A stretch of DNA of 64,000 nucleotides from Penicillium oxalicum (lineage: Eukaryota; Ascomycota; Eurotiomycetes; Eurotiales; Aspergillaceae), in contig NC_064653.1 of the NCBI RefSeq assembly GCF_001723175.1, positions 2,852,001-2,916,000 of the forward strand, written 5' to 3'. Under the pieces are notes generated by a model. It was not told where the DNA came from, ran no database searches, and saw nothing but the letters and a program-made list of their open reading frames with translations. Of the stretch, positions 5,864 to 36,425 are shown piece after piece (positions within the stretch are counted from its first letter, which is position 1; every line of letters starts with the position of its first letter). A program made the position numbers and the translations under genes.

Positions 5864-6944
<1,081 letters not shown>

Positions 6945-7040: not shown

Positions 7041-7163
7041 CAGTGATCCTTTCGCTGGTATTATCCAGATATCAAGTTATGACCGTATAATCTCAGAACG
7101 AACTCCTCGTCAACGACAATCTCGTGTGCACCAGCGCGCGACGGAATGAACCGTCCATCACTC
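7041..7163 (-). ncRNA. TPP riboswitch (thi-box) in the Thi4 leader
   Basis: Minus-strand aptamer in the Thi4 5' UTR. The conserved CTGAGATTATACGG (7082-7095) and TCTGGATAATACCAGCG (7053-7069) elements that bind the pyrimidine and pyrophosphate ends of TPP are both present, followed by AAAGGATCA. The P1 stem is formed by AGTGAT (7157-7162) and ATCACT (7042-7047). The intervening arm is lengthened as in fungal P3 stems. Just upstream, a GTAACT donor (~7227) and a TTGTTTCAG acceptor (~7169) could splice a ~59-nt leader intron ending immediately before P1. The expected behaviour is reduced Thi4 expression when TPP binds and leader splicing changes, as known for Neurospora NMT1 and Aspergillus thiA. 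Confidence 0.93.
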
Positions 7164-11900: not shown

Positions 11901-12259
11901 ATCAGCGCCTTGTACATGGCACCTTGCGATCGCGCTGGATGGAAATAGACTGTGATCGTTGCCACCAAGTGTTTACCATAATGGTTACCGAGGAGTGCTC
12001 CGACGACGGGGATGAAGACTGCCATGGAGGCAAGTAAATATGCGAGACTGCATTTGAATATGCCGACTACCTGTCCAGAAGCAAGCACCGGCTTTGCTTG
12101 ACGCCAAGTCTGTGAAATCCAGTCAAGAAGGCGCCGAGGCAATCTTCTCTCTGTAGGTCCATCCTCGCTGAGAATAAAAGGTTCGAGTTCATCCATTTCC
12201 TCAAGGGCGTCGTGGCGCATATCCGAGTCATTTTGAACATGCGAATATGGTAGCCGCAT
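8956..12259 (-). CDS. ArAE/FUSC-family membrane protein (Bre4-like, DUF2421)
   Basis: A 999-residue multipass membrane protein of the fungal aromatic acid exporter (ArAE_2_N, DUF2421, FUSC_2) family, which includes yeast-type Bre4 proteins. My model has five exons: 12259-10994, 10931-10529, 10470-9409, 9304-9143 and 9062-8956; phases close throughout. The second-exon acceptor could instead be at 10953. The N-terminal half has hydrophobic segments such as CSLAYLLASMAVFIPVVGAL. The third exon carries the family hallmark VRPFEFLRKDEMKFALKVG, then RGEWGLISYMLVCSMTIGAS. The last exons give a soluble tail with YALLYAYIIV. The frame continues upstream of 12259 only through a TTG, so the first ATG was chosen. 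Substrate is unknown; whether it belongs to the neighbouring NRPS cluster is open, and its promoter lacks the cluster motif. Confidence 0.82.
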
Positions 12260-12698
12260 ATCGACAGCCGCAATGACGTCAGCTGTGAGAGGGCGGGACA
12301 AACTTAGGCTGCCTGGAGTGCAGTCACCTTGTAGGGAGCATAAGCTGTCATTTGAAGGCGCAGGTTGAAGTCATTGTACTTCAATTTGAATCAGAATGGT
12401 CTGGGACCTGAAAAAGAAGCTTTTGGGTTTGGAGATCCGCTCTAATCTCGATTCTCCACATGATTCTGCCCCTCAAGCTGCTACCGCCTTCGTGAAGCCG
12501 CTCCAAGTTTCCAACTACGAGTGAGCCGTTTCTGGAACTTTAGGTGGAACCGGACCACAAATGCCTCCTGGGATCGCCGTAAAGTATCTTCAGCAGTCAA
12601 TCAACCAAGCATCATCCACGAGCACTCTTCATTTTGAAAATGGAGCATCTTGAAGCTGAACTTCTCCTCAAGAAGAATTGTCCATTTGGAAATAACAT
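12260..12698. other. Intergenic region, ArAE promoter
   Basis: 440 bases upstream of the ArAE-like gene and downstream of the MFS permease. Apart from a short upstream ORF starting near 12352 on the minus strand, I see nothing. Confidence 0.45.
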
Positions 12699-14617: not shown

Positions 14618-15580
14618 TGTATTGCTTCAACACCAACATGGACCGCGAGAATGGGTATCGTAGGAGACAAATGCAGACCTGACGCCTGTCTTATTTATGC
14701 GCACTCGAAGGCGGCAAGGTCAAACCACGCAGCTCACATGGCGAGAGGGGACCTCAAATATGCGGGGATAAAAAAGATCGACGCAGAACCGAACTTGAGA
14801 TCGTCAGTTTCCACTGAATTTTGATTGCCCGGAATTGCCGATTGCCGATTCAGCTGCGACGGTCGCAAGGCTGGTACTCGACAACCCGACACTTTGTGTG
14901 ACCACCAGACTACCAGACATGAGTACTGTAGCAGTGTAGCAGTGTAGCAGTAGTCAGACCCCCTGTCAGGACCGCCCGATAGGGCGAAGATCCGCAAGGA
15001 TTCGCGCCACGACCAGACGGCTCTTGTTCCGCTTGCCGACACACAGAGATCCTCCACTCGCTCTGGAAGGCTTCACTTTTCAAGCTCCTCTCGACATTCA
15101 CAATCCATTCCAATTGACATTGATCAAGCTCTGAGGCTTCGAGGAAGGAGTTGCAACCATGATGGAAGGCTCAAGTGCATGACGACATAGTGAGAGTGAT
15201 CCACTGCGTCCGGCAGGAGACCAGGATTTTTCACCGGGTGAAGTGGATGTTCTCTTTTGCCGGTGGTCCCAGTGTTTGGGCGGAGAAACTCCGAAAAGCT
15301 TACTGCCGTGGGTCCCTCCACCCACTGCGACTCTGGCCACTATGCGAAGTGCTTGCCTTCTCCATCATATTGCAGTCTGTGCCTCCAGGATCACTAAATC
15401 TAATCACCAGTAATTCCCCTCGAGAGAGAACTGCCTGTGAATTTTCTCATGATCAACTGCCGAGGTACTATTGACTGTGAGGGAACAAGATCAAATCATA
15501 AAGTTGCATCAATTTCATATCTCCTTATATACAAAATGGTCATCGAGAACAAAATCAATAACGCCAACAAAGGAAACAAA
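14618..15580. other. Intergenic region between permease and NRPS
   Basis: 963 bases holding the permease promoter and the NRPS 3' UTR. A short tandem repeat, GTAGCAGT repeated about three times, lies near 14925-14953. No coding signal and no CGGAAAT motif were found. Confidence 0.45.
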
Positions 15581-18500
15581 TCAATCACTTTTGGTCTGGA
15601 GAACGTGTAGCGAGTCACTCCCTGAGGAAACTTCAGCCAACTTGTCGGTCAAATCAATAATCTCGGTGGCAATCTGCTGCGCCGCTTCTTGCTCGAATAC
15701 ATCCGAATCATACATGATTGTGAGACGGTGCTCGTTGTTGGGTGCTTTGGAAACCTCCACGACAAGAGCGTACGGCTGGAACATCCGAACCTTGGACTTG
15801 GCCATGACCAACCACCGACTGGCGAGCTCTTCAGCAGAGTTGGCACTTGGCTGGAAGGGCTGGTACAGGAAGAGACAGTTGTTTCGTGCCGTGTCGCGAG
15901 ACAGCTCAGCAGCGTCGTAGATGTCGTTCAAGCCAACATTTCCATTCTCGGTGATGGCCCAGAACATGTCCTGAATACCTTCGAGGTAGGCCTTGAGAGA
16001 TTGGTTGAAGTCGAGGTTGGAGCGGACCGGAAGGAAGTTGGCCAGGGTACCATTGACGGTCTGGGGATCAACGTCCGCCATGTCGACGTTGCGTCCACTG
16101 AGGAGGTAGTCGAAGCTGATGTCTGTTTGGCCGCTGGCCTTGGCGAGCCAGATCTGGTAGGCTGCCTGGAAGATGATAGATACAGTGACACCATGCGCCC
16201 GAGCAGTAGTCTCCAGATTCCGAGTCACCATTTGGCGAACCGAAGCGTTCACTTTAGGATTGGATGCCGCGGGCCATGAATAGGACTTGCCCTGCATGGT
16301 CTCCTTCCAGAACTGGAGGGTGGAGTCACGGTCCGACTGATAGATGTGTGTGGCAAAGTCCTTGAATTGGCCATGCGGCGGGAGAGGAGTGCCCTTGAGG
16401 ATAGCCCCAAAGTGTTCATCGAAGATGCGCAGCAGAGTACCATCGTAGGCGGCATGGTTCATCTTGATCACGGTCTCCCATTGACCGTCAGGGTATTCCA
16501 GGATAGCATATTTGATGAAGGGGTTGCCAAACTGGAATCGTTCCTCCCAGAAGGCTTCCACAATTGCGGAGCGTTCATCCTCGTTGGCACAAGGAACGAC
16601 CATGAGATCCAGATCGCTCGATTTGAGCACCACGCCTGCCCACTCCTTCCGGTTCACACGAATCCATGATGTGCGAAGAATATCATTCGCTTCCGTGAGC
16701 TTTCGCACAGCGACAACCCAGTCATTCATATTCACAGATTCTGGCATGACCCGAGCTGCCATGAGCACCCACATCTGTTCAGGGCGCTCGCCCTCTTCCA
16801 AGAACTGAACCTGTCCCGGTGGGCATGGGTAGACTAGAAATCACCGTCAGCCTCGAATGTTCCACACGCTCATAATTTAATTGCGTAACTTACCGTATTC
16901 CACATCATCATCAAGGTTCAGGTTGCTGGACTTGATTGCGTCGAGAACGCTGGGGGGCGCTTGGTAGGCAGGCTTGCTAGATGCCCGATTCTGACGTTCA
17001 TCCGTGCGCATCAACTCGGCCAAGTCACTCAAGACGGGCGTCTTGAGAACATTCTTGACACCCAAGGCATAGCCGGCCTTTCTCGCCAGACTGGTTGCAC
17101 TGATGGCAGCGACGGAGTCACCACCCAGTGCCAGGAAGTCCGAGTTCTTGCCAATGTTGGCCATCGGGATTCCCAAGACATCCGACCAGATCTCCTGTAG
17201 GGTCTGCTCAGCCTTGGTCTCCACAGGCACAACCTCTTCCATTATGCCACTTCCCTCAAAGGCAAATTGGCTCATTGTCATAGCATCAAGCTGCTCAATC
17301 CAGCGGGTAAGCACCTTTCGGTCGGTCTTCCGGGAAGGCGACTTGGGGAAGTCACCAACAGGGATGATGTACTTCGGAATCATGTAGCTCGCAAGGGTAC
17401 TGAGTGATGCGCGTAGCTCACGAGCAACATCCGCATGGTCTTCCGCCTTGAGAATCTCGCAAGGCCCTGGATTGAAGACGCACACTGCAACCAGGTGCTT
17501 GTTACCCTTGATGGTGATAGCCAGGACGGCAGTACCTTGCACCAACTCAGTCTTCAGAATTGTCTGCTCAATCTCAGCCAGCTCAATGCGGTGACCGTGA
17601 ATCTTGACCTGGTTGTCCTTGCGGCCCAGACATTCAAGCTCGCCGCCGGGAAGCCAACGTGCCAAGTCACCAGTGCGGTACATCTTCGGAGTATCGAGAA
17701 CATTTTCCAAGAATGCAGCCTTCGTCAAGTCATCACGGCCAACGTACCCTGCGGTTACCTGTGGGCCAGCAACGCAAAGCTCGCCAACTGCGCCGTAGGG
17801 CACCAAATCCGTTCCATTGGGGTCAAGGACAAATCCCATTACCGTTGGGAAAGGCGCGCCAATGTTGCTCGGTCGTCCGGCGGGGTCCACATCCTTGGTT
17901 GTAATGACCATTGAAGTTTCGGTAGGTCCGTAAACATTGAGAATGCGGTGTCCAGGGCTCCATTTGGCGATGATATCCGGGGTCAATGGCTCACCCCCGA
18001 CAATAAGAGTGTGGAATGAAGGAATTTCTTCGGGGTCCATCAATCTCGCCACGGTCGGAGTCAGGATTGCCTGATGAGCGTTCATCTCGTTAATGACACC
18101 GGGCAGGTCGGACTGCATCTTGTCCGAAGGGGCCATGCAAAGTGTACCGCCTGTGCTCAGGGTGTTGAAAATGTCTTGCACCGAAGCGTCAAATACGTAG
18201 TTGGCGAACTGAACGGTCCTCCACTCTCCAGCATATCGACCCTCCGCAACGGCCATGCTCGCGACGGCAGCAGTGGCAGCGCGGTGAGGCACCATGACAC
18301 CCTTGGGAAGACCAGTACTACCACTGGTGTAGATGATATACGCAATGTCTTCGGGGCAGACTTGAGTCTGCGGCGAGCTGGGGGACATCTCGCTAATCCC
18401 AGCGTCATTGACGTCAATTGCCTCGAGATCAGGGAGTCCATCAACATCAGCCTTAAATTCGTCGTGCACAATGATGAACCTGGCTTTCACGTCCTTTGCA

Positions 18501-21500
18501 ATAAATGCATTGCGGTCAATTGGGTTGTCTGGACTAAGCGGAACATAAGCTGCGCCGGCCTTCATCACACCCAAAATCGCAACCATGGTGTCGATCGACT
18601 TGTTGAGCATAAGGGGGACCGCATCGCCGACCTGTACCCCCTTCGACACCAAGTAGTTGGCCAAGAGGTTTGCCTGAGTATCCAACTGCTTGTAGGTGAC
18701 CTGAATCTCACTGTCCCAGTCAATCGCAACAACATCAGGAGTTTCCAGCGCGAAGTTCTCGAACCGCTCATGCAGGAGACTTGGCGCAGGGATGTGAAGC
18801 GACTCTCGGTTGGAGATGGTGTTGTAAAGGAAGTCCATCTCCTCGGTCCCAATAGTCTGCAAATCACGGACTCGCTGGCTTGGTTCTTTGACAAACTGCT
18901 GGAGGACCTTGGCGTAAGAGTCCAAGAGGAACTTGACACGTCTTGGTTCCATCTGCGATGATAGGCTGATTTGCAAAGCGTTGTCAATCTCTTCAATCTC
19001 CAGGGTCGTGAATTCAGATTGCCACACCGGTCGCTCTCCGTAGCGATGGAAAACTTGGCTCATTTCCTCAGTATCCTCATCTTTCACGAGGATGTTGACC
19101 ATGGTATCGAAAGAGCTCGAATTCAATTGGGCGGCTGCGAGAGCATTGCGAATTCCGTGATGAGCGTGCTTCAAAGTGCGAAGGAAGTTGTCCCGAATGG
19201 AGTGAGTCAGGCTGATCAAAGTGCTCTCCGGATCGAGGGTGACTCTCTGAGGGACCACAGTCAACGTTGGGCCATCAATGCTCTCAATTCCCGTGACCGG
19301 TGCGTCTCGGCCAGAAAGAGTGGTTACAAAGGCAACATCCAACTGACGAATGTGGTGAGAGAGAACAATGCCCCAAGCTGCGTACAGAACAGATCCAGCA
19401 GAAAGACCGTTCTTGGTGAGCACCTGGCGCCCTTGATCCCACGGAAGCTGGATCTTTGCCACAGAAGTCTGATTTTGTGGGACAGTGTTCAGAATACTTG
19501 GCTCTACCCCTTCCAAGTATTTGTGCCAGTAAGCATCCTGTTCCGCCTTGGAAGACTTCGCGAGATATCGCACGAAATTCTTGAAGGGGGTTCTTGGGCT
19601 CAGTGGCAGGCCGAGGTAAACCCGGGAAACATCCTGGTAAAGGAACCGGTGGGACCAGAAATCAAACAGGGAGTGGTGAGTCGTGACAACAAGTCGGTCG
19701 TCGAGGGTGACGGTGAAGCGGGCAAGCGGACCATCAAGTGTGAACTTGTCATTCTTAGAGTCCTCCATGTAGTCGTCGAGGTTCTTGTCAACCTCAACCC
19801 AAGGGAAGGCGACATCGTTTCGCAATACCTGGAGGAAACTGCGTCGGTCGGGAACGAAAGACGTGCGGAGGATGTCACTCTTGCCAAAGACTTCCAGGAA
19901 AGCCGCTCGAAGCTTCGTCTTGTCGAGGTTGCTGATATCCCAAACCCTGCGGTAATTGTACATAGACTGGTCCTCTTCGATTGTTGCAAGAAGGCCTTCC
20001 TGCAAAGGTGTCGCTGGATAGGCATCTAGCACGCCGTCTTGTTTTTCAAGCTCCTGACGAAGTTTGGAGTTTGAAACAAGAGAGAAGGGTTCTAATTCTT
20101 GCTCTGCGTCTGCATCTACCTCGGCTTGCTTTGCAACACTTTCAAGACTGCTGCCATTCAAGAGATCGCCCAGATCAACGGAGACACCGTTCTTCCGGAG
20201 CTCGTTGATGGCTTTGATAGCTTCAATCGAAGTGCCTCCCAATGCAATGAAGGAGCTTTCGCGGCGGATTGTGGTCGCTTGAAGCGAAAGGATGTCCGCC
20301 CATGTGCTGGCGATTCTCGACTCCACGGGATCAGTAATAGTCTGTGACGCCGATGAGAAAGTGGCGGAGACTAGCGACTCCCAACCGATCTCCAACGCCT
20401 GGGCCCGAATCGCGCGGACGTCTGTCTTGCCGTTTGAATTGGTGGGCAGAACGTCTAGCTGCATCCATAGGGATGGGATCATGAAAGCTGGAAGCTTCTC
20501 ACTTGCAAGTTCCTTCATGGACGCTACCAGTTCCGGCCATGATTGGCCAGAGGAAGGCACGATTGCGGCCACAAGGGTCAGTTTTTCCCGCATATCGACG
20601 GCAACAACAGCACATTTGTTAACACGAGAATGCTGCGAAAGAACCCGATCTACCTCAACGGGGTTGATCTTCTGTCCATTGATCTTGGCCTGGAAATCAA
20701 GACGTCCGAGAATTTCCACACCATCGGCGTGCATTCGAGCGATGTCACGGGTCCGATACATCACGCCGGCGCCGAATGGGTTGGGGATGAAGACGCTTGA
20801 TGTCACATCTGAGTTGCTAGAGCCTGAAGTCAGGTATCCTGATGCAAGCTGAGGACCGGCAAGACACAATTCGCCAGACACGCCCATGGGGGTCAACTCA
20901 GTGGTGCCAGGCTTCAAAATGAAGACCTGTGTTGTATCACTTGGAAGGCCGACCACGCCAGGGTTGCTGCTGGGATAAAGACGTGTGCCAAAGTTCAACT
21001 GCGCACATTCGCTCAAACCGTATGTGTTGCGCAGCTCGACCGCATCGGCCCAGGCAACCACAAGCTCGCGTGTGATCTTCTCCCCGACCAGAATGACTCT
21101 CTTCAGAGACGGAACTTCCTCGGGTTTGATGATGGACAGAGCGGAAGGAGTGATACCCAGAGCCTCAACCTGCATCGAGCGGATGATGTCGGCAAGGTTG
21201 CTGGTCATACGTTCTTTGCTGGCCAGAAGCAATGTGCCTCCGTGAACGAGTGTTGACAGCATGGTTCGTTGGGCAGCGGAGAAAGTGGGGTTATAGAAAA
21301 GGAGCCATCGTTGAAGACCCTTCAGGGAATGATAGTGCATTCCATTTGTCGCGGCTCCATGCGTAAGCACTGCACCCTTGGGTGCGCCCGTTGAACCAGA
21401 GGTGAACACGATGTAGCACCGATCCTGCGCCTTGATGGCGAGGTCAAGGTTGGAGGAAGCGGTCATTTCGTTTGTGGATTCGATCAAATCTTCCAGCGCA

Positions 21501-23296
21501 ACTGTGCCTGGGTACAAAGAAACATTGTCACTGGTCGTCAGAACCATTTTCGCGGAACAGGTGTTGATAATGCTCTGATTTCGCTCCACAGGGCCAGCTG
21601 GATCGAGGACAGTGTAAGCTGCCCCGGCCTTCAACACGGCGAGAATCGCAATGATCAAGGACGTGGATCGTTCAATGCAGACGGGCACCACTTGGCCTCT
21701 GATATCTCGAGAATACAGCGCATGTGAAGCTCTGTTGGCAAGTGCGTTCAATTCTGCGAAGCTCAGGGCTGCATTTTCCTCGAACTGAACAGCTGGAGCA
21801 TTTGGGGTTCGCTCCACCTGCTCCTCGAACAACTTCGTGATAGTGTATGTTCGGCGAGGCTGTGCCAACGAACGGGCAATTTGCACTTGTTGCAGTTGCT
21901 CGTCTCGGGATGCAAGATCCAGTTTCTGCAGAATAGTGTTGGGGAGGTAGAACTTGTCGAGGGCGCTGTGAAGTGCGTAAGAGAAGTGATCAAGGAGCAA
22001 CTGTGCATCACTCGATCTTGTGAGGGTCGAATAGCAAAGCGTCAGGGTGGCAGGGCTGACGCCGTTGATGAAGAACAACAACGGGAAGCCAGTGCACTGG
22101 CCAGCGAAAATGGGACCACTTCCATCTGGCGAATAGCGAACGATTGACTCGACCTGCCCACGAAGATGTTGTGTGACCTTGTCATAGCCAATGAATGCAT
22201 GGGTTGACGCAGACTGATGGACATTGTCGATCTTATCAGCGAGGGTGGCAAAGGTCTCCTCGCTGTCCAACGTCACTCGGATCGGATAGGTATGATCAAG
22301 GTATCCCACACAAGAAGCAGTGCCGGAGAAACTGGCATCACGTTCCACAGCTGCAAAGAGAACATCACCTGCTCCAGAATGGCAGTGGAGAATGTACGCC
22401 CAGAGTGTCTCATAGATCAGCTTCCGGCGCAGACCCGTGGCATGCTCCAATCGAGCCAGCCCGGGGTGAGAGTTTTCGTCGATATGGACTGTGACTGCAT
22501 TGCGTTCTTCGATTTGTCCGATATCGAAAATCTTCGTGCTCCACGGAAGCGCGCGGGGTGGCACAGCTCCTCGCAGCTGTGTCTTCCAGAACTCAGCGCT
22601 GGCTGTAGCATCTTTTGTGTGCTCGAGGAACTTGTGGTACGAGGCCAGCGGTGTGTGCTCAGCTACGGGCAGATCGCAGTACAGCCGAGCCAAGTTCCGC
22701 TTGATGAGCTCCAGGGAAGTGCCATCCACAAGAGCTCTTCGCGCATAGATTGTGAGTCGGAGGCCGCCACTAGGATCGCGGCGAACGACCAATTGAGCAA
22801 CATCCTCGTCGCCAGTTGTTTCAAATTGCGATGAACGTGACGAGTTGTTAGATGTAGCACGGTCCGTGTTCCACTGGATATCTGGAGTCCGGTCGAGCAC
22901 GCGCTGGAATGTTTGTCCGGAAATTGGGTTGGTCCGCACAACGGCTCGCAAGCAGCAATCTGCGAAACGAGGAGTCAGCGTTTGTCCATGTTTGTGAGCA
23001 AGGAAGTCAAGGGGCTATCACGTACGAAGAGAACACAGTTGTTTCCAAGCGGAGCGGATACGTGCAACATCTGGAGATGCATTCCGAGGAAGAATGAGAC
23101 TGATACGGCACCATTGTTTCTCGTCTGACTCCAATATCTGAGCCTGTGCCGGGGTCACCGGCCATTCTTCGAAATCTGTTTCTTCGTCCACATCGTTAAG
23201 ACCACGAAGGGTTTTTTCGTTCAGAACCTCGGCATGATCAAAGGGATCGTGCGACAAGAGGTCGATGGCCTGGTGGTGCTGCTGAACCAGAGTCAT
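15581..23296 (-). CDS. Bimodular non-ribosomal peptide synthetase, C*-A-T-C-A-T-C
   Basis: A 2529-residue NRPS from three exons (23296-23026, 22959-16894, 16833-15581) whose phases close. Domain order with rough residues: degenerate C (20-440; its active-site motif reads RRALVDG near 164 instead of HHxxxDG); A1 (463-950; core A3 YIVFTSGSTGAPKG near 605); T1 (LGGTS, Ser ~1001); C2 (from ~1069; HHSLFDF near 1185); A2 (1485-1990; A3 YIIYTSGSTGLPKG, A5 NVYGPTE); T2 (LGGDS, Ser ~2039); C3 (2115-2529; NHAAYDG near 2238). Aligning to GrsA-PheA, the A1 pocket reads S-A-R-G-I-V-T-Q-L with Ser in place of the Asp that holds the alpha-amino group. The A2 pocket reads D-A-Q-I-I-G-V-M-V. A1 probably loads a carboxylic acid and A2 an amino acid; the terminal C may release the product. 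There is no thioesterase, reductase, epimerase or methyltransferase domain. The product is unknown. Confidence 0.95.
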
Positions 23297-25959
23297 GGTG
23301 CTTTTTGATTTTGCCCAAAGTCTAAGTCTAATCAACTGAGAACAAGAGAAGGTTAGTGATACCAAATCATTTGCTTGAATAACTCAGAAACATTCTCGGT
23401 TGAGAATATCTTCACCTTTACGGGAGTGAGAACTCACGAGAATTGGATTTGTTGAAATACTTCAAGCTTTTGCTTTTTTGACTTCCAACGTATTTGGAAA
23501 TGAAAATGTCACTGATGATAGTTTTTCGGATTGAAAGCTTGAGAGCTTGGTTGAGATGACTCTGTGAACGAGGTCGATGATTGAGAATGACTCGACACGC
23601 CGAATCGTGAGGTCTTTATATCTTCTTTGAACATCTTCGAATCTGAACAACTTTGACGTGGCGGCAACATTGTCGTCCGACACACAATAGCCTTGAACTC
23701 GACTCTCCGGCCGTTGAATTCAATTGAGATTTCCCTAATGAGGATTTCCGGTTTGATCCCTCGGTTGGTTGACCTGGAATTGGAAGTAGAGGCCACAAGC
23801 GGTCAACTCCCGCCATCCTGAGAAAAGTAAGAGAATGCACATAGAAAGTATTTCCGAAGTGCTCGGGACGACTTGCATGAAAAACTTTTGCGTCAACACG
23901 AGAAGTGTACGGTTTCTGTAAGCTGATAGGCTGTCAATCTCTTGTCAGACGTGGAGTCTTTCTTACTATGCATTCAATCATGCTCGTGTATCATCCCGGT
24001 GCCCTTCTACAACTATTCTCTAGATAGGCGCTTGTAGGCTGGTTGTATCCTCTTTGCAAGGATCCAAATTGATTTTAATCCATATAATTCCTTGACGGTA
24101 GAGACTGTCTACCGTAGTTGAGCGCATATGGTTCGACTTCCCACCCAAGGGTACGCCGTTGAGCAGCTACTTGCGTCTGCATCGCAAAGACACACTCATC
24201 GCACGGGCAGTTTCCGAGAGGCAAAGTCATCGTATTGGACGGCAGGCCTCCGTGGGGTCTAGGGACGCCAAGACGTTCGATGGCAACTGCTTCCATCATC
24301 TGAAAAGATGGCCATATCATGTCCGCATTAGTGGCTCTTGATCAGCATCGATCGTCAAGGGAAATTCTCCATCTGCATGCATGGGGCAGGGGTAAGAGGC
24401 GCATATGCATCATAGTCTGCACGACTCTCGGAGACCATTGGTATGTGGGTCTAGAGGAGCAGTCTCCGCATGAAAGGTCTGCGAGTGGCGCACGGAACAC
24501 ATGGAGGTCCTGCACGTCAATCTCTGAAGAAAACTGCATTCCCGAGACGACTATTTCCGGAGACTGCGTGGGGGACAATTTGTGGAGGCGGTATAGATTC
24601 CTGATTGTATATCCGGGGCACTGTTCTGCCCATACGATCACGTGATTTAGGCGGTGGATGTGGATCCATCGTGATGGAACGGGCGCTGTTGTGTGATCTT
24701 TCATCGGAAATATCGAGTTGGCGCTATCCGAAGTCTATGTGCATGGAAAAGTCAGCTCCCGTTGGGCTCCTTCTACATAGCATGATCGGCTTCAATTGGT
24801 TACCTAAGTGCTGAACAAACAAAAACACACTAATTTCGCCAGATCTCATGCATATTCATTACGATCCGTATACTGGAACTGAATTGTATTCCGCAGCCTC
24901 AGTACTTACCTAATCGCTCTCCACGGTGGTAACGTTATATATCCTAGTCAGGCGATTCAAGTATGAAAACCGGCCAATTCTGGCAAAGAGCCCTGGTAAC
25001 GCGAATCAACTTTTCTGGTACAGGTTGATCGCATCCATAATTTGCTCATTGTCATTCTCTCTAGAAATCCCTGGAATAGTCTGACACTAGCAGTCGATCC
25101 AACGTGACATATGTAGTAAGAAGTTTCTCCTCCATGAGTAACTGCCCACATATTCTTCACGAGATGCGGGCCGCGATGACCGGCCCGTCGTGGGGGCTCA
25201 ATTGACGACCCACTGACGTCGGATTCACTCACCCATCACGGTTGCATCTCGGATGGGACCGTTACGACAAGACTGACCACTGACAATCAGGCGAAGAAAA
25301 TTCAGAGATCTTTGAGACGGAGACTTGACAGCACAATCCATCAAGCCTTTGCCAATTCGCTGCTTTCCACAGAGTCATGCATGCGCAGGCGCTCGTGGGG
25401 CCTTGAGTCGCTCGGAAATCTCATTCGAAGGTGCCTAGAATAAACTCGAGCGCCGGAATCCACACCATCGGGCTGGAAGATTCGATCGAGCTAAATGGGC
25501 AGGGGGTCAAAGAATCTCAAGGGAAACAGTGGGTATTGCCGCTCCGAGGCAAGTACAAAAAAAAAAAAAGAAAGAAGCAATTGAAGAATGTTGCGATGGT
25601 GGAAACACTATTACCCTCGGATAAGGTTGTGCACGGAAATACTCCACTCGTGATTCGGAAATCCTCTAGCGCAGTTTACTCGCGGTTAAGGATCAACAGT
25701 GTCAGTGCGCCCAGGAAATTCCGAGCAGTCTCCAACAACGACTTTCGGGTTTCATTTGTTCGGAAAATGTCCAATTGTGTCTTCATGTACGAATCAATCA
25801 TGATCAGAAATGGGAGTCGAAGATTGTCCACGCAGTCAAGCCATGGTCTATAAGTACCGTCTTCTTGCCGCATCAAAATCCTCACACATCAATCAAACTC
25901 GTCTTTCCTGAACAACAGAAACTCCGCAACCAAAGTCGTCAGCTTCATTTTCTTTCAAT
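23297..25959. promoter_or_regulatory. NRPS / CMD-like divergent promoter region with seven CGGAAAT sites
   Basis: 2.66 kb between two divergent start codons without a convincing gene. The 7-mer CGGAAAT (or ATTTCCG) lies at 23744-23750, 23850-23856, 24553-24559, 24705-24711, 25413-25419, 25634-25640 and 25656-25662. A near-match (CGGAAAAT) lies near 25760. A TATA-like TATAAAG on the minus strand at ~23614-23620 probably serves the NRPS, leaving a ~290-nt leader, with two sites 120-240 bp upstream of it. A TATAAG near 25848 probably serves the CMD-like gene. An A12 run lies near 25558. Confidence 0.6.
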
Positions 25960-26658
25960 ATGCCTTCCAACGAGAACTCAAGTGCCCCCACCAACAACTG
26001 CCTCCTCCCGTACGTTGACTCTGCAACGGCGCCCGAGGATGTCAGTGCCGCTCTCAGGACTCTCCCTTTTGAGCGCAACATCTTCAAGGTAGGTGATCAT
26101 GTATTACTCCCCTCTATAAATGACCCAGAGCATCCTGATAACTAATTGTCACAGCTCCTTGCCAATGCGCCAGCTTTCTTCCCAACCTTCATGAAACTCT
26201 TGACCTGCGCATGGTCCCCCAACCGCAGCCTGCGCTCGACAGACTGGCAGTTGATTGTGCTGCGAACTGCAGCTCTTCATGATGCTCCCTATGAGTGGGA
26301 TGTTAACGAGCCGGTCGCTCGGGTCTTCAACTACACCGAGGAGCATTTTGCTGCCATCCGCTCCGGAGACCTTTCTTCGACCGAGCTCTTCACCGATCGC
26401 CAGCGTCTGATCAACTCCATTGTGACGGAACTCTACGCCAGCAACCGTGTGAAGCCCGAGCTAGTTCTGCAAGCAAAGAAGGTCCTTGGTGATGAAGCTT
26501 TGATGGACCTGTTCTTCACTCAGGGCATCTATGCTTTCCTTGCACGGACGATGAACAGCTGTCAGATTGATTTCGACGCTCCTATTCCTGGCTTGGTAGA
26601 GCAGCTACGGAAGTACAATGCGGCTATCATTGAAAAGGAGAGTCAGTACACGGATTAA
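25960..26658 (+). CDS. Carboxymuconolactone decarboxylase-like (AhpD-fold) protein
   Basis: A 210-residue protein from exons 25960-26088 and 26155-26658 (66-nt intron, phase 0). The core ANAPAFFPTFMKLLTCAWSP, WQLIVLRTAALHDAPYEW and NEPVARVFNYTEEHFAAI matches the CMD/AhpD-like fold common beside fungal biosynthetic genes. The CxxC of true AhpD peroxidoreductases is absent: the position reads APYEW and no Cys pair exists. A redox function is therefore unlikely. Related cluster proteins act as small isomerase/decarboxylase-type enzymes or have no known role; none can be assigned here. It is divergent from the NRPS and has three CGGAAAT sites 300-550 bp upstream, so membership of the NRPS cluster is likely. 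Confidence 0.82.
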
Positions 26659-27427
26659 ATGTATATAGTCAGTGGCTTGTGTGTCAATATAAAAGTGCAA
26701 GATTGAGTTCAAATCAAGTTGTGGTATACTTTTCTGCCTCAGGCGTCTATATTTTCCTAGTCAACCTTCGAGAGCCCCCGTAAAACTTACTGCCAATGGG
26801 AACTGCATTTGCGAGGGCATGGATCATACATAAAGTACCAAGTTAAAATCATTCGAGGTGGGTCTGCACGATTAAGTTCATGAATGCCCTAGCAAAATAA
26901 GGTGTGTGGGGGGGGACTGGTCAAGTTGGGCCAACCTGATAAGTATCTGCCTGACTATGGAGGCCTCGCGAAACTGGAGATTCACGCACTGAATCATTGA
27001 TCCCCAACTTTATCACATTTCAAGCTTTACACATGAGTCTGCTCATGATGGCAATCTGTCCATCACTGCAAAAGTGAAAAAAGGACGCAAAATATTTTTG
27101 TGGGGATATTTCAACAGATTAAGCATCAATCACAGAGACACAACCATCTACACCATTGCCTGGCTGCCCAAAGGTTTTCCGGGCGATTCTATCTACCTTT
27201 CTCGAGCTTGAGATTCCAGAACAACCCCCCATTTTATACAGCCCTCATTTCGCTCTCAATGTTTCTCCGATAGGGTTTCCTCGCATCATGTCCATCTAGT
27301 TTCAGTTGCTGAATAAACTACAAAGATAGACGGTCTAGTGGAACAAAAAAACAGAAATTGCGCTTTTCTGAACTATATCTAATTCAGGAAAAACTGGATA
27401 CACGAATATTGGAATTCTCTCTTGGAC
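26659..27427. other. Tail-to-tail intergenic region
   Basis: 769 bases between the convergent CMD-like and enoyl-reductase genes. A G9 run lies near 26907. No gene or RNA was recognised. Confidence 0.45.
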
Positions 27428-28489
27428 TCAAACAGATTCGAATTGCAAGACTGGCTTTGGGTAGCCCACCAATGCGCCCTGCTTCAAAAAGGTTTCTCGA
27501 ATTTTCTCCTCCAAGCCCTCACCGTTGTTCCATTCCACCGTGTGGACCGGTGGTGCCACCAATTGACCTTGCTCAAAGAGCTCCACGAACCAATTCAGCA
27601 GCTGTACTTGAGCCTGCTCCGGGTATGCGCTCAGAGCTTGGGATAGTCGGAAATTGCGGAATGTAATTTGTTTCCAGAAGAGAAGCTCCTGGGTCAGCGC
27701 TATCTGTCCCGAGGCACCACCCAGAGAGCCATAGTTGATAAATGTGCCTCCTGTGGATAGCAGCGCAGCCAAGTGCTGCCCCGATGTGCCAAAAACAGAG
27801 TCCAGAGCCAGCATGACACGTTTGCCCTCGACGCAGGCGGCAGCCACCCCGCCCTTTTCAAATTCAGACTCGGTCAGAACCACGTGGGCCCCCTGACTGA
27901 GAAGCGACTGGCGCACAGATTCGACATCTTCGCGGTCTCGAATGATGCAAATGCTGGGGCATCCCCGAAGTCGTGCAAATTGCACAGCCATGCGGGCGAT
28001 CGAGCCGCTGGCTGCGTTGATCGCGACAAAGTCCCCGGGGTGGAGGTTCTTCGCACTCTCGACCAACAGATATGCAACTGAGCAACTGGTCTTTAAGAGA
28101 CATGCCGTGCTAGGCTCGATCTTGTTCGAGATTTTCAGAAGTGAGGATGCGGGAACAACGGCTTCTGAACGCCAGGTTCCCAGTCCGTGTGCTCGGGGGA
28201 TGACATGGTCTCCGACTTGCAGAGTAGAGACTCCCTCTCCAATGCGTTCGACGCGTGCAACACCATCATAGCCGGGAATGGGCTCTCCCACATGCTTGTA
28301 ATGAGGCTGCACTGGATATCGGCCTGCGATGACCATCAAGTCCTGCGGGTTGATAGGAGCCGCCAGGAATCTCAACAGGACACTGTCCGGAGGAAGAGAG
28401 TTGTTCGCGGCGGAATCATGTCGATATACGCGAACAACCTCGGCGGGATTCAAAGAATGAGCTTGAAATGTGATGGTTTGTGCTGACAT
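27428..28489 (-). CDS. MECR/Etr1-like NADPH-dependent 2-enoyl thioester reductase
   Basis: A single-exon 353-residue medium-chain dehydrogenase/reductase closest in pattern to mitochondrial trans-2-enoyl-thioester reductase. Features seen are APINPQDLMVIAGRYP, whose Tyr matches the catalytic Tyr of Etr1, then GEPIPGYDGVARVERIGEG, IPRAHGLGTWRSEAVV, and the cofactor loop NAASGSIARMAVQFARLRGC. FNRLSQAL-type and C-terminal HTVEWNN segments also fit. No zinc ligands are present, as expected. Starting at ATG 28489 (A at -3), the N-terminus MSAQTITFQAHSLNPAEVVR is not a mitochondrial presequence. The protein is thus probably cytosolic and a biosynthetic paralogue. The 12 bases upstream are in frame only from a TTG. 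It shares a promoter with the MFS pump that has four CGGAAAT sites. Confidence 0.85.
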   Translation of the reverse strand: MSAQTITFQAHSLNPAEVVRVYRHDSAANNSLPPDSVLLRFLAAPINPQDLMVIAGRYPVQPHYKHVGEPIPGYDGVARVERIGEGVSTLQVGDHVIPRAHGLGTWRSEAVVPASSLLKISNKIEPSTACLLKTSCSVAYLLVESAKNLHPGDFVAINAASGSIARMAVQFARLRGCPSICIIRDREDVESVRQSLLSQGAHVVLTESEFEKGGVAAACVEGKRVMLALDSVFGTSGQHLAALLSTGGTFINYGSLGGASGQIALTQELLFWKQITFRNFRLSQALSAYPEQAQVQLLNWFVELFEQGQLVAPPVHTVEWNNGEGLEEKIRETFLKQGALVGYPKPVLQFESV

Positions 28490-29183
28490 CTTCGGGATCA
28501 ATGTTTTGGAAAATGGTCTAGTGTCTTGTTGATTGTCAAATAGTCGAGGTTTTTAACAAAGGGAGCTTTTTGACAAAGTGAATCGAGTTCGTGATAGTCG
28601 CAGAGACCTCTTCGCCCGGGAGACAACATCGTTCATATCATGAGGATGACCTCCGGCCATCCAACGTCATTGATTCGACGCCACTCCTATGCCATACTTC
28701 TCCGGCCTTTCCTTCCCGGGAACATTTGGTGATTCCGTGAGATGTTAAAATGTTAGTCCACGGCAACATCCGCCCGCCGTGTCGATCCACCGATCTTTTG
28801 GCTCTCCCGATGTGTTTCCGTCCCCCACTGCATTTCCGTGCGACCCACTTCATTTCCGGCCCTCATCTTGAATCTGATCAGGAGAGCTAGTTCGCTAGTT
28901 AGACACACGACCCCGAAAGAAAAATCGAATAGGAGATGTCTCGAAAACAAAACTCTTCCTCTTACATTTCCGGTCTCTCACTTCGGAAATCTTTTGAATT
29001 GACTAAATGATCCTCTTCGAGATTGGTAATCGGCGCAATATGTTGCTTCATTACCACGCTCATGATTTCTACAAAAAGGGCCTTCGTCCCCGGCCCAGAT
29101 CCTGCTTCTCAACTCACTGATCACACTCGTCTTTGATATCTCATCAATCAGCAAAGTCCTTGATAGAAGATTTCAAAAAAAAA
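28490..29183. promoter_or_regulatory. Divergent promoter of the enoyl reductase and MFS pump, four CGGAAAT sites
   Basis: 694 bases between two divergent ATGs. CGGAAAT/ATTTCCG occurs at 28832-28838, 28852-28858, 28966-28972 and 28984-28990, with one-mismatch GTTTCCG at 28814-28820. The pair at 28966 and 28984 is in opposite orientation, 18 bp apart. No open frame here is credible. Confidence 0.65.
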
Positions 29184-30959
29184 ATGTCTGCAGATTCCGT
29201 GAATGAGTCCGGCATCTCGACGCCGCCTTCAGAGCCAGTCTCTGAGAAGACCGAGCCACCATCATCACCACGAGATGTGCATGGTATCAAGGTGAGTTTT
29301 CAGTCCTCAAGATTGCAAGTTCAATAGTCCAGGTTACAGCTCAGCTCACAATTAGCTCACAATTATATTTTGCTTCCAGTGGGTGCTTGTCATCTTCGCC
29401 TTGCTGTCATCACTCTTCCTCTACGCTCTTGACAACACCGTTGTGGCCAATGTTCAACCCAAAGTCGTCGAAACCTTCGGCCATGTCGCCCTGGTCCCAT
29501 GGCTTGGAGTCTCCTTTGCGCTGGCTTCGGCTGCCACCACTTTAATCTGGTCCAAAGCTTACGGCACATTCTCCGCCAAAAAGCTCTACATCGGCAGCAC
29601 AACCGTTTTCATGGGTGCTTCCGCACTCTGTGGTGGTGCGCCCGACATCAACAGCTTCATCGTTGGTCGTGCAATTGCTGGCGCAGGTGGATGTGGCATG
29701 TACATGGGCTTGTTGACTCTCCTCTCCGTGACCACCGACAATGCCGAGCGACCTAAATATCTCAGTCTCACTGGCTTGATCTGGGGTATTGGCACGGTTC
29801 TCGGTCCCGTTGTCGGTGGAGCTTTCGGTGACAGCAGCGCAACTTGGCGATGGGCGTTTTATCTCAACCTGCTTGTCGGTGCTGTCGCATCGCCCATCTA
29901 CTTCATCTTGTTGCCCGATTTCAAGCCTCAGAAGGGAACACCACTGATGTCTCGCTTTGCTCAAATCGATTACCTGGGAGCTTTGCTTTCCATCGGCACT
30001 CTTCTCTGTGTGATCATGGCAATGAACTTTGGTGGTGTTTTGTGGCCGTGGAGTGACCGCAACATCATCGGACTGTTTGTGGGCTCCGGAGTCCTTTTTG
30101 TTCTCTTTGTCGTGCAACAAGTATACTGCATTGGGACCACTCTCGACAACCGCATGTTCCCAATGCATTTCTGGAAGAGCCGTACTATGATTACACTGTT
30201 CCTGACTATGAGTAAGTACCGATTCTATTCCTCCTTTCTCGTGTGAAAGAAAAGGTTCTAGGGAAGGGCGAAGACTGACTGCGACTAGTGCTCGCGACCT
30301 TTGGCAGCTTCATTGGCATCTTCTACCTGCCTCTGTACTATCAATTCACCCGTGGCAGTACCGCTATCCAAACCTCTGTCCACCTCTTGCCCTTCATCCT
30401 GTTCCTTGTTGCCTTCAACTTGGGCAATGGTCAGTTCATGGGTAAGACTGGATACTACTACCCGTGGTATATCGTCGGTGCTGCCCTTGAACTGATCGGA
30501 GGTGTCCTGATGTACCACGTCGATGAGTTCACCTCCAACGCCAAGATTTATGGTTACACCATCATCCTCGGTACCGGCGTCGGTTGCTTCTGCCAAGCCG
30601 GATTCGCCGTCGCCCAGATGAAAGTGAAGCCCTCTGAAATTCCTTACTGCGTTGGATTCATGACGGTCGGCCAAATGCTCGGTATTGTGTTTGGTACCGG
30701 TATTTCAGGCGCCCTCTTTGTCAACTTGGCTCAGGATGCACTTCGGACCGTCTTCCCCGGGGCTGATGAGACTCAGATCTCAAACGCCATTTCTGGAGTG
30801 GGTAGCGGTCTGCTCCAATCTGCGGGCTCGGCGGAGAAAGCGATGGCTATCCACGGCATCACGAGAGCCATCCAGATGGCGTATGTGCCCGTCATCGCTG
30901 CAGGCAGCATTTGCCTGATTTGCAGTGTGTTGATGAAGCGTGAGAAGGTCTTTGTTTAG
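29184..30959 (+). CDS. MFS drug/toxin efflux pump (DHA2, 14-TM type)
   Basis: A 536-residue major facilitator from exons 29184-29291, 29380-30211 and 30289-30959, phases closed. After a Ser/Pro/Glu-rich cytosolic head, the first helix ends in LFLYALDNTVVANVQPKVVE, matching the LDxTIV motif of the 14-helix DHA2 family. Further matches are GRAIAGAGGCGMYMGLL, GPVVGGAFGDSSATWRWAFY (motif C) and the FYLPLYYQFTRGSTAIQTSV loop. Family members export fungal secondary metabolites or siderophores. Position opposite the enoyl reductase, and the shared CGGAAAT-rich promoter, suggest it exports the NRPS product. The exported compound is not known. Confidence 0.9.
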
Positions 30960-32708
30960 GCCCGTGGAAGTGGAGAACAAGCCTATATTCATTTGGGGGC
31001 GGAAATTCAAAGAAAGAGATGGAATGTCGGAGGCTGAGTGGCTGCTCTCAGGAGCGCAAATCAAAACAAGGTAGCAGCTCGAAAGCAAGGAATCGTGAGG
31101 GTAATGGCGAGCATTAGCTGGTCGGTCGGGCTCAAACCTTCCGAGACGAGGGTGATATGAGGCGGGTCCGATTCATGTTTTCCTATGATTTTTCCGGGGC
31201 GTTTTTTTTTTACAATTTGCTGTCTCATACAAAATGTTTATACATGCATGTGCTCGGAACGTCGGAACATATTCTGAGCAATACAATGTTATGTCGTTGA
31301 TTTTCAACCTTGTCTGGTCAGTTTGGATCCATTCTCGTATTATGTACTCCAGCTGGAGTCCACGCGAGTAGTACTGACTCCGCCCCTTCATGGAAGGCAA
31401 AGTATTCGGTCATCCACGGGCAGTCAGTCCTGGATCAAAAAGTTGCTTTGAATTTGATTAGTTGTCTTCCCCAGCATCTCTATCTTCGGACCAAGTGAGG
31501 TTGATTGAACAGGATTTATCATGAGTCATGCAGACAGAACGAAAAAACGCACCCGCAAGAGGAAAGACCAGGGACCAGGCCCCACGAAGATGTTGAAAAG
31601 ACAGAAATCGTTATTTTATTTTGTGAAGGTTGCACTAGGCTTGGCACTACTCCGCTCACCTGGATCGAGCCGCTCCAAAACCGCACTAAAATCTGACACG
31701 GTATCCACTGCCTAAACAAACTTCGCCTATGGTGGGGCCCCTTCACATGGAGTGTCGGAGGACACAGCAAAATAGGGTGCCCTTTTGCACGAGGACAGTC
31801 GCCATGTCGAGCCATGTCAAGGGTACAGATCACGATCGGCGGGCGTCTTTTTGGGGAAGACCAAGGGCGATCTACTAATGTAGACAATTCAATGATGTTC
31901 AGTCATGGGAAGCAAATTGGCTTGAAATCGCGTATTTACCTGTTTCGGACAAGTCGAAGCCACATCCCAGCCTTCCTCGGTATAATCAGTAACCGAAGAG
32001 GTTCGATACGTATGGAGGAAACATGAACAGGTCTTGGCTGCAGAGATGAGTGCACGAGTCAGCTTTCTGTATCCTGCCGCACCGCAAGATCTGCGACCTT
32101 TCAGCTAAGCATGGTACTCGCAAGCGAGCATCGGAGATCGGCGCTCAGACGGTACATACGTACTATGGTGTATGTACTCAGTACTGTCACAGTGTGCACT
32201 AATTACATAATGTACCGTTTCGCCTAGTAGGTATTTACTACTAACAGTATACAGTAAAGTGCTTGCTACCTTTTGCAGTCTGAGGGCTTTTCCCGTATAT
32301 ACAATCAAGTCCCGTGGGAGAATATGCTCGCGTCAATGTGTGAATATTAATGGGTTTCTTAATTTCGAGTATTGAGACGGGGAACAAGGTTGGGCCAAGT
32401 TTGTGTTCTACAAGCATTAAACTGTTGTTGCTACGGCTATTCTTTTTTTTTTTTTTTTCGCGGGGCGGCCCGGGGCATCCGCAGTGAAGCAACCTTCTCA
32501 TTGGGAGTAAGATGCCTCGGTGTATCCGAAAAACGTCTTTTTTTCCACCAGGGTGAGAAGTACTTCCGACAAAGCCATGGAAAAAAAAGAGAAAAAAGGA
32601 GAAGATAAATGAGCTAGATGGCGAAAGAGCTTTGACCAGGATTCACCTTATGAAATGATGAATAGCATCGTACCCTACTGTATATACAGTTTATTTCTTC
32701 GAATGTGA
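30960..32708. other. Intergenic region
   Basis: 1.75 kb with the pump's 3' flank. A single CGGAAAT lies at about 31010. A GTAC/TAC-rich patch lies at 32145-32250 and a T16 run near 32443. No gene was recognised. Confidence 0.45.
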
Positions 32709-33236
32709 TCAGCAATGGTGAGGTACTCGGTACCGTTGCGATGGGTTGGCCGGGACCACCTGGCGGCCGAGTGACCGTAGTTGACTGGCGAGTTTGCGGC
32801 CGATATTGACGCTGACCATTCCGCATGTCATGTTGGGAGGTAGCTGTTCGAGAACAGTAGATTCGAACGTGACCTGAGCCACAGTGCGGTTGATAGAGAT
32901 GTTGATAACAACCTTCATATCCCCCTCGGAGTTCGCCAACCACCAGGCAGCATCTGCTCGCAGTTTCTGGCTCGACTCTGACACGCCAACTTCAAGAACA
33001 ACTGACGGCCAAGTCCAAGTTCGACCAGAGAAAAGAGCTTTGGGGACCTACTAGCCGTCTGGTTCTTTGGAGCAAGGGGAACCCTGGATTCTCGACGTTG
33101 TGTGTGAATAGAAGAGATCTTTCATGCCAACCGAGTAAGCGGCATGGATGAAAGATGCAATGGATTCCCCGACGACAGTATTGTGAGATTCTCCAGACAC
33201 TGTCACAATCAACCGCCGCATCTCTGGATCGTAGAT
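32709..33236 (-). pseudogene. Relic of a fungal hypothetical protein family (GDxKxVIxIS type)
   Basis: Read on the minus strand from 33236, the frame gives YDPEMRRLIVTVSGES, SFIHAAYSVGMKDLF, then ends in TAG TAG after KEPDG. The same frame resumes at once as VPKALFSGRTWTWPSVVLEV and SESSQKLRADAAWWLANSEG, followed by DMKVVINISI. The order YDP...LIVTV..., then a W-P-S/T-hV-hE-h-G-h-S-E-S segment, then DAxWWLxxSxGDhKhVIxISI, is recurrent in fungal hypothetical proteins, some annotated as restriction-endonuclease-like. An in-frame TAA lies just upstream of 33236 and no start codon is seen. I therefore read it as decayed; a missed intron at the TAGTAG site is the alternative. Confidence 0.5.
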
Positions 33237-34099
33237 TTAGCGACAGCCCTTCTAGAGCTTCACCTCAGCCGCATCCGGTGGCACATTGGTGAATTTTGCG
33301 TAAACAGTCACCAGATTAGGCGTATCTCTTTGTCAATTGAGGATGGACCGAATAGACCGCTCTGATGATCCGATCGCTTCCACTACACAATCCACGTCGA
33401 AGCTGTTGAACTCAGGTGTGTCCATTGTGGGAACTTTGATGGTGGCACCTGTGATGGGGGATCACCCCAGTCCTGGTCAGGCCTATCAAGCTCCTCTCGG
33501 TAATCGCAGTCACGGGGTCATACCTACCTCACTGACCACAAATGGCTTGTTATTGCTTGAATGATTGGAAATAATTTTGAAACATTGAGAGAGAGAAAAG
33601 AGGGAAAAGGAGGCCATGGAAAGAACGACCAACTGCGAACTGCATCCTTGCGGACAATGAGACGGAAGAAGCTTCCACCGCAATCCCATACTTTCTTCAA
33701 ATTACAGGGGAAGCATTTCATCATGAGCTTGTGAAGCATGAGAACGTCCCTGACAAAAGCGATGTCCAGGCCTGAATTGTCCTCTCTCCCGGCAAATAGT
33801 TATCTCAATGCTACCCGAGCATTATTCAGTCGACCACTCGAGGTCAGTGGGCTTAATGCATTAGCCCCGGCCAGTGAAAGTTACATGATTCATTGACCTA
33901 CGATGCCAAGAAGTTCATTGCTGCGCCTACTCTAATTCCCTGACGCAAACTCCAAATGCCTTTTACATATATCCAAAGAAAATCGTTTCAGTACATGACA
34001 TTATGATGTGGCTTGTGGCTTGGCACTCCTGACGCCTATTTCCCGATGAGGATGTCATACGTATGGGTGAGGGATTTTTCCCTTCTCCGAATCAAGCAG
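33237..34099. other. Intergenic region
   Basis: 863 bases at the 3' side of the Zn2Cys6 gene. No coding, RNA or repeat feature was recognised. Confidence 0.4.
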
Positions 34100-36425
34100 T
34101 CAAAATCGAAAAATGGGCGGTTCATCAATCTGATTAGGAAAAGCCTGCAAAATGCGAGAACAAAAAAATCAGAACTGCGCTGGTAGCAATCCGGCGGTAA
34201 GGGCAACTTACAAAATAGTCTGGTTGTGACCACATCAGTGAGTTTTCAACATTATCAAAGAACCCAGTGGGATCTCCTAAATTTAAGAGATCCTCAACTG
34301 AGTCAGTGTTCAAAATGTCCGGACCAGGGGCAATGCCGATCCCTTTCCATGGCGCCGGAGATGAGCCCGTGGAGGTATTCGACAGCGTGAGGCCAGCATC
34401 ACTGTTCACAGACGGTGCATTCGGTTGATACGGCAATCCGCCCCCATCATTCTCTGGCGACTCGGCCGGATGAGATGGTCGTAGATGAGAAACAATTCGC
34501 CGGTGAACCTCCAGTCGAAGCTCTTCCAAAATTACGCCATATCGTCGATTTCGACTGCTGTGAGATGTAACTCGACCCAAATGTTGCTGACACGTTTCGG
34601 CGAGGCTGAAAAGATATCTAATTCGAGTCGGATCATGCACGCGGTGGGCAGCCACGTACGCCATTGCCGAGGGCTCATGCTGGCGAATCATGTAGATATA
34701 GATGACAGTGACGGCACAGAAACACGCATAGTTGGTGAACCAGTAGCCTTGAATCAGAGTCGCTTTATTCGCGAGTTCATTGACAATAGTCATGATCTCT
34801 TCTGCCGATGCGATGCATTTGTCGATATATGAGATGATGGTGGCGGTGGGCGCCCCCGATACGGACGCATCCTTGGTGTCCATGAAGAGGAGTGTGCGTG
34901 TAGTGTGAATGATAGCGTGTGCATAGGCCATCTGTAGAATCTGTGATCGCCATACATCGTGCGTATCAGGGACACTCTCTTTCCACCTGTCGAGCTCCAA
35001 TATTAACAGTACTGTACGCTCGACCGGGGTCTTTGAGGAGCACGGTTTCGCTGAGTACAACTGCCGTGAAATGTCACCCAGAATTCGGGTGAGTCTGAGT
35101 CGAGCAACAGGTACATTAGTATAACTTGAGAGCCAGAGTTCCATCAACACTCGCAACCTACCTGTAGTGAAGAACCGAAGCAACCATGGTATGATCTGGT
35201 TTGCCACTTCGAAAAGCCGGGTCTTCTATGAGAAGATCCTCATCGTTCACCTCCCCGGGAAGCTCTTGGTCAATGTCTGCATCATGCATAAGTTGAGGCC
35301 GCCCAAATGTGACGCTGATGTATCTGTCTAGCGTATAGACACTCCAGAACGTTCTTTTGCGCAATTCCTGCTCTAAGAAACTGTATGGCTTGTCCTTCTC
35401 ACCCATTGGCCACGACGCTCGATGAAGGCCAAGCACTGTGACCAACTGAACTGTCAGTCCAAAGGAGAACCAGCCTTCGCTTACTCGCGACGAGGCAAGT
35501 AGGTATAAACAATTGTTCAACCGAGCTTGGACTGTCTCGAGACGAGGCGGTCCAGTTTCAATTGCTGCCAGATGCTTTGCCATGGCGAACCATCGTTCGC
35601 TTTTGTCCAATGGTTAGTTCGATTCAATAATTAACCAAGGTAGACTCATGCTCACCTTTGAGCGTCCGACTCTGCTTGGTCGGCTCGTCCTCGTCGATCA
35701 TACAGTGTGCCGATGGCAAAGATACTGAAGCAAATGCACATTCGTGCCACTGACGGTCCCGATGGTACGTTGTTGGGGGTTTGCATATTTGCCTGAAATA
35801 GCTCACCCACCCACTGCTCCACGAGTCCTCGATGGAGGAACCGATACGTGACCACAGCGATGTCAAAATAGATTGCGGTCAGTTCGAGAGCTCGCTCCAG
35901 CGAGGGCAACGGAGCTTCTGGCACATAGTAGGCAGAGTATGGCTTGTCTCCATAACTGAATATGGAAGATGCATCGGGAGTCTCTGGATTGACTACGCCA
36001 GTAAAAGCAGGCGATGTGGATTGAGTCGGTGGCAGCGATTTGTCCTTCTTGAGATCCTCACAGACTCGATTGAGAAAGGCGAGCCCCGATGCGGGCCCCA
36101 CGTTCGAAGTGAGAGGTTGACTTTGAGAGAGTGTGTCATTCAGAGCGATTCGTGCGCTGGGGGATCTGGAAGGTGCCGCTGTTGGAGCTGGCAGTGGCGG
36201 GCAGCCTTCGATGTCGATGGCTTGAGAAGGATCAAGAGGTGGTGGCAGTGGAGCGGCCAGTCCTCGGGAATATGAGGATTGGTACTCGCACGCCAGCGAT
36301 AATCGATAACACCGCATACATGGGAGGGTCCCGCTGCATCTGGTCTTCTTCTCTTTGCAAATGTCACAGGCTCGGATGGCGTTGTGACGCTGCTGGGTTG
36401 TCCGCTTCTTTTTGGGGGCCGTCAT
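34100..36425 (-). CDS. Zn2Cys6 fungal transcription factor, putative cluster regulator
   Basis: A 711-residue binuclear zinc cluster activator from four exons (36425-35656, 35599-35162, 35094-34212, 34144-34100), all phases closed. The DNA-binding domain is C20-x2-C23-x6-C30-x5-C36-x2-C39-x6-C46 with basic KEKKTR inside, preceded by PKKKR-type nuclear localisation residues. A Pro/Ser-rich linker leads to the fungal_trans regulatory domain (about residues 190-560), including GLTVQLVTVLGLHRASW and RKRTFWSVYTLDRYISVTFG, a strongly conserved motif of the family. The C-terminus is acidic and Asn/Ser/Pro-rich, plausible for activation. It is the only pathway-type regulator near the NRPS, about 3 kb beyond the pump. 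Its own promoter lacks CGGAAAT, so autoregulation through that site is not indicated. Confidence 0.92.

Follow-up and report, generated by a model that had tools for sequence, protein, structure and literature searches.

CGGAAAT copies in two divergent promoters of a Penicillium oxalicum metabolite cluster: predicted binding sites for the local Zn2Cys6 regulator

Which protein reads the heptamer CGGAAAT, which is repeated in two divergent promoters of a metabolite gene cluster in Penicillium oxalicum? The window that we analyzed is the whole stretch of 64,000 nucleotides at C4:2852001-2916000 (C4 is contig NC_064653.1), from a genome of 30.77 Mb (30,766,980 bp in 17 contigs). One promoter separates the genes for a nonribosomal peptide synthetase (NRPS) and a protein that resembles carboxymuconolactone decarboxylase (CMD-like); the other separates the genes for a trans-2-enoyl reductase-like protein (ER) and a transporter of the major facilitator superfamily (MFS). 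We propose, with a probability of roughly 65%, that the CGGAAAT copies serve as homotypic binding sites for a Zn2Cys6 activator encoded in the cluster itself, at 36425-34100. In other words, to judge from the sequence, this regulatory protein probably docks on the heptamer.

Counting both strands, there are 18 exact copies of CGGAAAT in the window, and 11 of them are in the two promoters (7 between the NRPS and CMD-like genes and 4 between ER and MFS). An earlier note on this DNA had listed these 11 positions, and every one is an exact match. Its description of "11 in about 3.4 kb" gives the right count, but the span adds up two intergenic regions that lie apart, 23297-25959 and 28490-29183 (3,358 bp or about 3.36 kb in total): a contiguous stretch of 3.4 kb contains at most 8 copies, and one of 5.3 kb at most 12, including the copy within ER. 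The note's tally for the window, about 16, was too low, as it missed two of the 7 copies outside the promoters, at 27648 (in the ER coding sequence) and 58980. Two other outside copies had been misplaced by 1 and 10 bases: the copy given as 22917 is at 22918 (in the NRPS reading frame), and the one given as 31010 is at 31000 (directly beyond the MFS stop codon). In an exact scan of the window, the stretches 3182-22917 and 31007-58979 contain no copies, so the promoters of the regulator, of a permease, and of an ArAE gene do lack the site, as had been claimed.

Across the genome, CGGAAAT occurs 3,952 times (1,982 and 1,970 on the two strands), or 0.128 times per kb. At this rate, 0.43 copies are expected in the 3,358 bp, close to the earlier estimate of about 0.4, and the Poisson probability of 11 or more copies is 1.6e-12. 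Correcting for overlapping windows across the genome and for 8,192 possible words raises this to about 6e-4. An exact count over the window and the genome, which the earlier note had suggested as a check, thus places the promoters far above the genome rate. With CGGAAAT present about 4,000 times genome-wide, one copy on its own means little, and it is the density alone that singles out these promoters. The proposal that the regulon comprises exactly four genes does not follow: with 3,952 genomic sites, a single site is not unusual.

The sites are also ordered by strand. Read from left to right, the exact sites have the strand order ---++++ between NRPS and CMD-like and ---+ between ER and MFS, so in both promoters the minus-strand sites are on the side of the minus-strand gene and the plus-strand sites are on the side of the plus-strand gene. 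On the NRPS side, the exact minus-strand sites are at 23744..23750 and 23850..23856, which point to NRPS from 448 and 554 bp from its ATG, and at 24553..24559 (1257 bp). On the CMD-like side, the plus-strand sites are at 24705..24711 (1255 bp from the CMD-like ATG), 25413..25419 (547 bp), and 25634..25640 and 25656..25662 (326 and 304 bp), the last two forming a direct pair 22 bp apart. In the other promoter, the minus-strand sites on the ER side are at 28832..28838 and 28852..28858, which form another direct pair, and at 28966..28972 (477 bp from the ER ATG); the plus-strand site on the MFS side is at 28984..28990 (200 bp from the MFS ATG) and forms an everted pair with the site at 28966. (Of the two start codons, that of MFS is the closer one to the site at 28966.) Three near-sites share the CGGAAA core: CGGAAAC at 24211..24217 on the minus strand (NRPS side), CGGAAAA at 25761..25767 on the plus strand (CMD-like side), and CGGAAAC at 28815..28820 on the minus strand (ER side). 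With these included, 14 of 14 CGGAAA sites are directed, 5' to 3', at the gene on their own side. By chance, a single correct switch point would be seen in both promoters with a probability of 0.0195 (11 exact sites) or 0.0037 (all 14). Related words behave differently: the strands are mixed for CGG[CGT] (43 and 18 sites in the two promoters), for CGGA[CGT] (17 mixed, while three between ER and MFS are all on the minus strand), and for CGGAA[CGT] (4 mixed plus one).

In shape, the element seems to be monopartite and asymmetric, and it differs from the usual paired zinc-cluster site. Among 43,680 pairs of trinucleotides, CGG followed directly by AAA is the most enriched in these promoters (14 occurrences versus 2.03 expected). 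In contrast, the two promoters show no enrichment of paired CGG or CCG triplets at any gap from 0 to 20 (the best P is 0.02), which speaks against a bipartite CGG/CCG element. When the 14 CGGAAA sites are aligned, their flanks hold little information beyond CGGAAA(T) and no clear partner, and these signals are too slight for an extended motif: T at position 8 is found in 0 of 11 exact sites versus 10 of 71 in background loci, and G at position -1 in 0 of 11 versus 17 of 71, and neither difference is convincing. Neighboring sites are 22 bp (direct), 20 bp (direct), or 18 bp (everted) apart, start to start, so there is no fixed register.

The candidate reader is a 706-amino-acid protein, modeled with four exons on the minus strand (34100..36425), with a Zn_clus domain (above the Pfam cut-off) and the Fungal_trans middle domain (PF04082, E = 4e-33). 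(Fungal_trans is common in Zn2Cys6 factors but is not obligatory.) Its zinc cluster is conserved: the six cysteines align with those of its relatives, and it keeps the KK pair that aligns to Gal4. In Gal4, this KK pair contacts CGG. The closest relatives, from Aspergillus terreus and A. nanangensis, are 55% identical to the regulator; several from Penicillium and Aspergillus are about 50% identical, and a large group is about 43% identical. In a tree of 46 rows, the regulator lies on a long branch of its own (0.76) within a clade of 12 rows that is separated from the large group with support of 100/100.

Members of this clade are linked to the pathway genes in other fungi. The clade member adjoins an ER gene in A. 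nanangensis (FE257_008166/008167) and a CMD gene in P. mononematosum (N7519_004067/004066); in P. coprophilum, its locus tag is two away from that of ER (N7500_001982/001980). For A. bertholletiae, the matches to the regulator, to CMD, and to ER are on contigs of equal length. Linkage was judged from locus tags or from equal contig extent in the lists of matches.

We infer from these observations that the sites are probably bound by monomers of the pathway regulator. Each protomer would read one asymmetric CGGAAAT, with the zinc cluster contacting CGG and neighboring residues contacting the A-rich 3' side. Given the lack of a second CGG, the polar arrangement, and a structural model of the ortholog from A. 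terreus in which no coiled coil is confident, we think that one protomer reads each site. (This is a single-chain model with a mean predicted local distance difference test score, or pLDDT, of 67; it has no confident coiled coil or long helix after the zinc cluster, where residues 67-128 have pLDDT below 50.) Several sites in each promoter would add up to a signal, and the regulator would switch on the NRPS, CMD-like, ER, and MFS genes together. Because the sites point toward the gene on their own side, each divergent promoter is divided into two sets of sites. It is tempting, and at this point rather speculative, to go further and propose a monomeric regulator on a bare, directional CGGAAAT whose orientation divides the shared promoter, so that polar activation could be read gene by gene. 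The broader idea in the earlier note, a pathway-specific Zn2Cys6 regulon, gains support from the density, the polarity, and the linkage of the orthologs; direct binding by this regulator is a prediction within it, and the genome encodes a paralog with a very similar DNA-binding domain on contig C1.

Several points weigh against our proposal. The polarity was noticed only after the fact. From the lists of matches, a link with ER or CMD could be made for only 4 of the 11 other members of the clade. Within 1,275 bp, the promoter of the regulator itself lacks CGGAAA, although autoregulation is not required, and a single-chain model says little about dimers. Also, 3 of 110 background windows hold another 7-mer (AGTTAGC, CAGCAAC, or AGCCAGA) with an equally small P. 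This could be taken to mean that the density is an accident of chance or composition, or that the sites are copies of a local repeat, with no function. The background in that comparison is inflated, as it consists of 20 loci that were chosen for carrying CGGAAAT pairs together with the rest of the window, which raises the expected count to 0.99; the promoter P of 1.6e-12 at the genome rate is still smaller than the best P of a background window (9.1e-11), with a different background used for each. The total of 18 for the whole window is only mildly high (shuffles average 9.65, and 1 of 100 reaches it). Yet in 2,000 dinucleotide shuffles of both promoter regions, CGGAAAT averaged 0.73 copies and never exceeded 4. 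Of the 420 rearrangements of its letters, CGGAAAT ranks first in the two promoters with 11; second and third place go to words that overlap it (7 and 5), and no word without such overlap has more than 3. Each promoter is enriched by itself (7 in 2,664 bp, P = 8e-8, and 4 in 693 bp, P = 2e-6), and the order of the strands also argues against an accident. As for repeats, the flanks of the 14 sites share nothing beyond the core. Overall, a functionless origin seems very improbable.

A further point against our proposal leads to a more serious rival, which is that another factor reads CGGAAAT and the local regulator acts elsewhere or via other sites. The most plausible such factor is the paralog POX_a00993 at C1:3045793-3047698, whose zinc cluster is intact in the DNA. 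(The deposited POX_a00993 protein is missing part of the zinc cluster, probably because of a wrong intron call.) The DNA-binding domain is very similar in the regulator's clade and the paralog's clade, so the paralog could read CGGAAAT too, and weaker Zn2Cys6/Fungal_trans relatives are numerous in the genome (39 matching stretches in all). However, linkage to ER and CMD is seen for the orthologs of the local regulator and not for the paralog's clade: in P. waksmanii, the member of that large clade is about 1,300 tags from the CMD/ER pair. We therefore consider it unlikely that the paralog or another factor is the reader. Least probable of all is that these are sites of the known carbon regulator AmyR, which in Aspergillus binds CGGN8(C/A)GG or CGGAAATTTAA (PMC5468973). 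The letters CGGAAAT are shared with CGGAAATTTAA, and CGGN8(C/A)GG is found three times in the two promoters, both strands together. But these three matches are unrelated to the 11 sites, of which none has (C/A)GG at the right spacing or T at position 8.

If the local regulator does read CGGAAAT, then the heptamer would show which DNA letters are recognized by a regulator whose orthologs accompany a CMD and ER pair, associated with an NRPS, in Aspergillus and Penicillium, and it would give a handle for studying when the cluster is expressed. If the strict polarity is borne out, divergent fungal promoters may be sensitive to the direction in which a monomeric zinc-cluster site faces.

Close pairs of CGGAAAT are also found elsewhere in the genome. 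Counting pairs separated by no more than 30 bp, there are 18 direct, 6 everted, and 9 converging pairs (one triple on contig C6 was counted more than once), of which 2 direct and 1 everted are in the promoters described here. At C1:612054-612114, three direct copies lie inside about 60 bp. Four copies lie within about 310 bp from C6:651104 onward, in or beside the reading frame of an alpha/beta hydrolase. For remote members of the regulon, we compared ten frames from 6 of the 20 pair loci to Pfam; two matched (an alpha/beta hydrolase and an ABC transporter), and none of the ten suggests this pathway.

The genes beside the two promoters are as follows. NRPS is at 15581..23296 on the minus strand, with its start codon at 23296, and has condensation, AMP-binding, and PP-binding domains in Pfam. 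Its intron-exon model is unrefined: the open reading frame at 16877-23014 has two of each domain, and the one at 15581-16840 has one more condensation domain. The CMD-like gene (25960..26658, plus strand) has one intron and encodes 210 amino acids. Its match to the Pfam CMD family is below the cut-off (E = 0.19), and its homologs are named AhpD-like or carboxymuconolactone decarboxylase-like. ER is at 27428..28489 on the minus strand (353 amino acids), and MFS is at 29184..30959 on the plus strand, with its start at 29184. A lost gene between NRPS and CMD-like was considered and rejected: there are 39 stop-to-stop frames of at least 40 amino acids, of which one was compared to Pfam, with nothing above the cut-off. 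On the minus strand, frames at 32700-33500 resemble fragments of a decayed gene; the fragments that were tried had no match in Pfam.

Homologs of the CMD-like protein and ER have adjacent locus tags in distant fungi (VTN49DRAFT_1175/1174 in Thermomyces, CSOJ01_03574/03573 in Colletotrichum, HIM_03005/03004 in Hirsutella, and JMJ35_002440/002441 in Cladonia). This suggests that they are an old, conserved gene pair. One scan of viral contigs with a CMD ortholog gave no match. In the open-licence literature, we found no paper on a CMD/ER/NRPS gene set; nor did we find, in titles, abstracts, and some passages, any report of CGGAAAT as a motif of secondary-metabolite clusters.

How does a bare CGGAAAT compare with the sites of known zinc-cluster proteins? 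AlcR, TerR, and Pho7 are Zn2Cys6 proteins that bind as monomers. In the pho1 and tgp1 promoters of Schizosaccharomyces pombe, monomeric Pho7 recognizes one asymmetric CGG site; site 2 of pho1 is TCGGAAATTAAAAA, and two pho1 sites are directly repeated with 20 nt between them (PMC10910108, PMC5559640). CGGAAAT is likewise a single, asymmetric CGG element with no second half-site at a fixed spacing. Unlike CGGAAAT, Pho7 sites need a TTxAA extension, and TCG(G/C)AxxTTxAA fits 0 of the 11 sites here. Also, Pho7 serves phosphate genes, whereas the sites here are in a metabolite cluster, and when the first 74 residues of the regulator were searched, 11 sequences were listed with E up to 1, none of them a Pho7 entry.

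TerR, from the terrein cluster of A. terreus, is closer in setting. It is a cluster-specific Zn2Cys6 regulator that is mainly monomeric, with the consensus TCGGHHWYHCGGH, and its sites are in promoters of the terrein cluster, one of them bidirectional (PMC4360782). Here too, there is a Zn2Cys6 gene in the cluster and there are sites in the cluster's promoters, including divergent ones. In contrast to that consensus, which has a second CGG after 5 bp, CGG-N5-CGG is found at 0 of the 11 sites, and the consensus as a whole is absent from both promoters. Similarly, what CGGAAAT shares with the AmyR site CGGAAATTTAA is those seven letters (PMC5468973); at 11 of 11 sites, there is neither a second (C/A)GG triplet nor a TTTAA extension. 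By analogy, then, the element here may belong to a cluster regulator with a short site of its own, which would work like the sites of Pho7 and TerR while failing each extended consensus.

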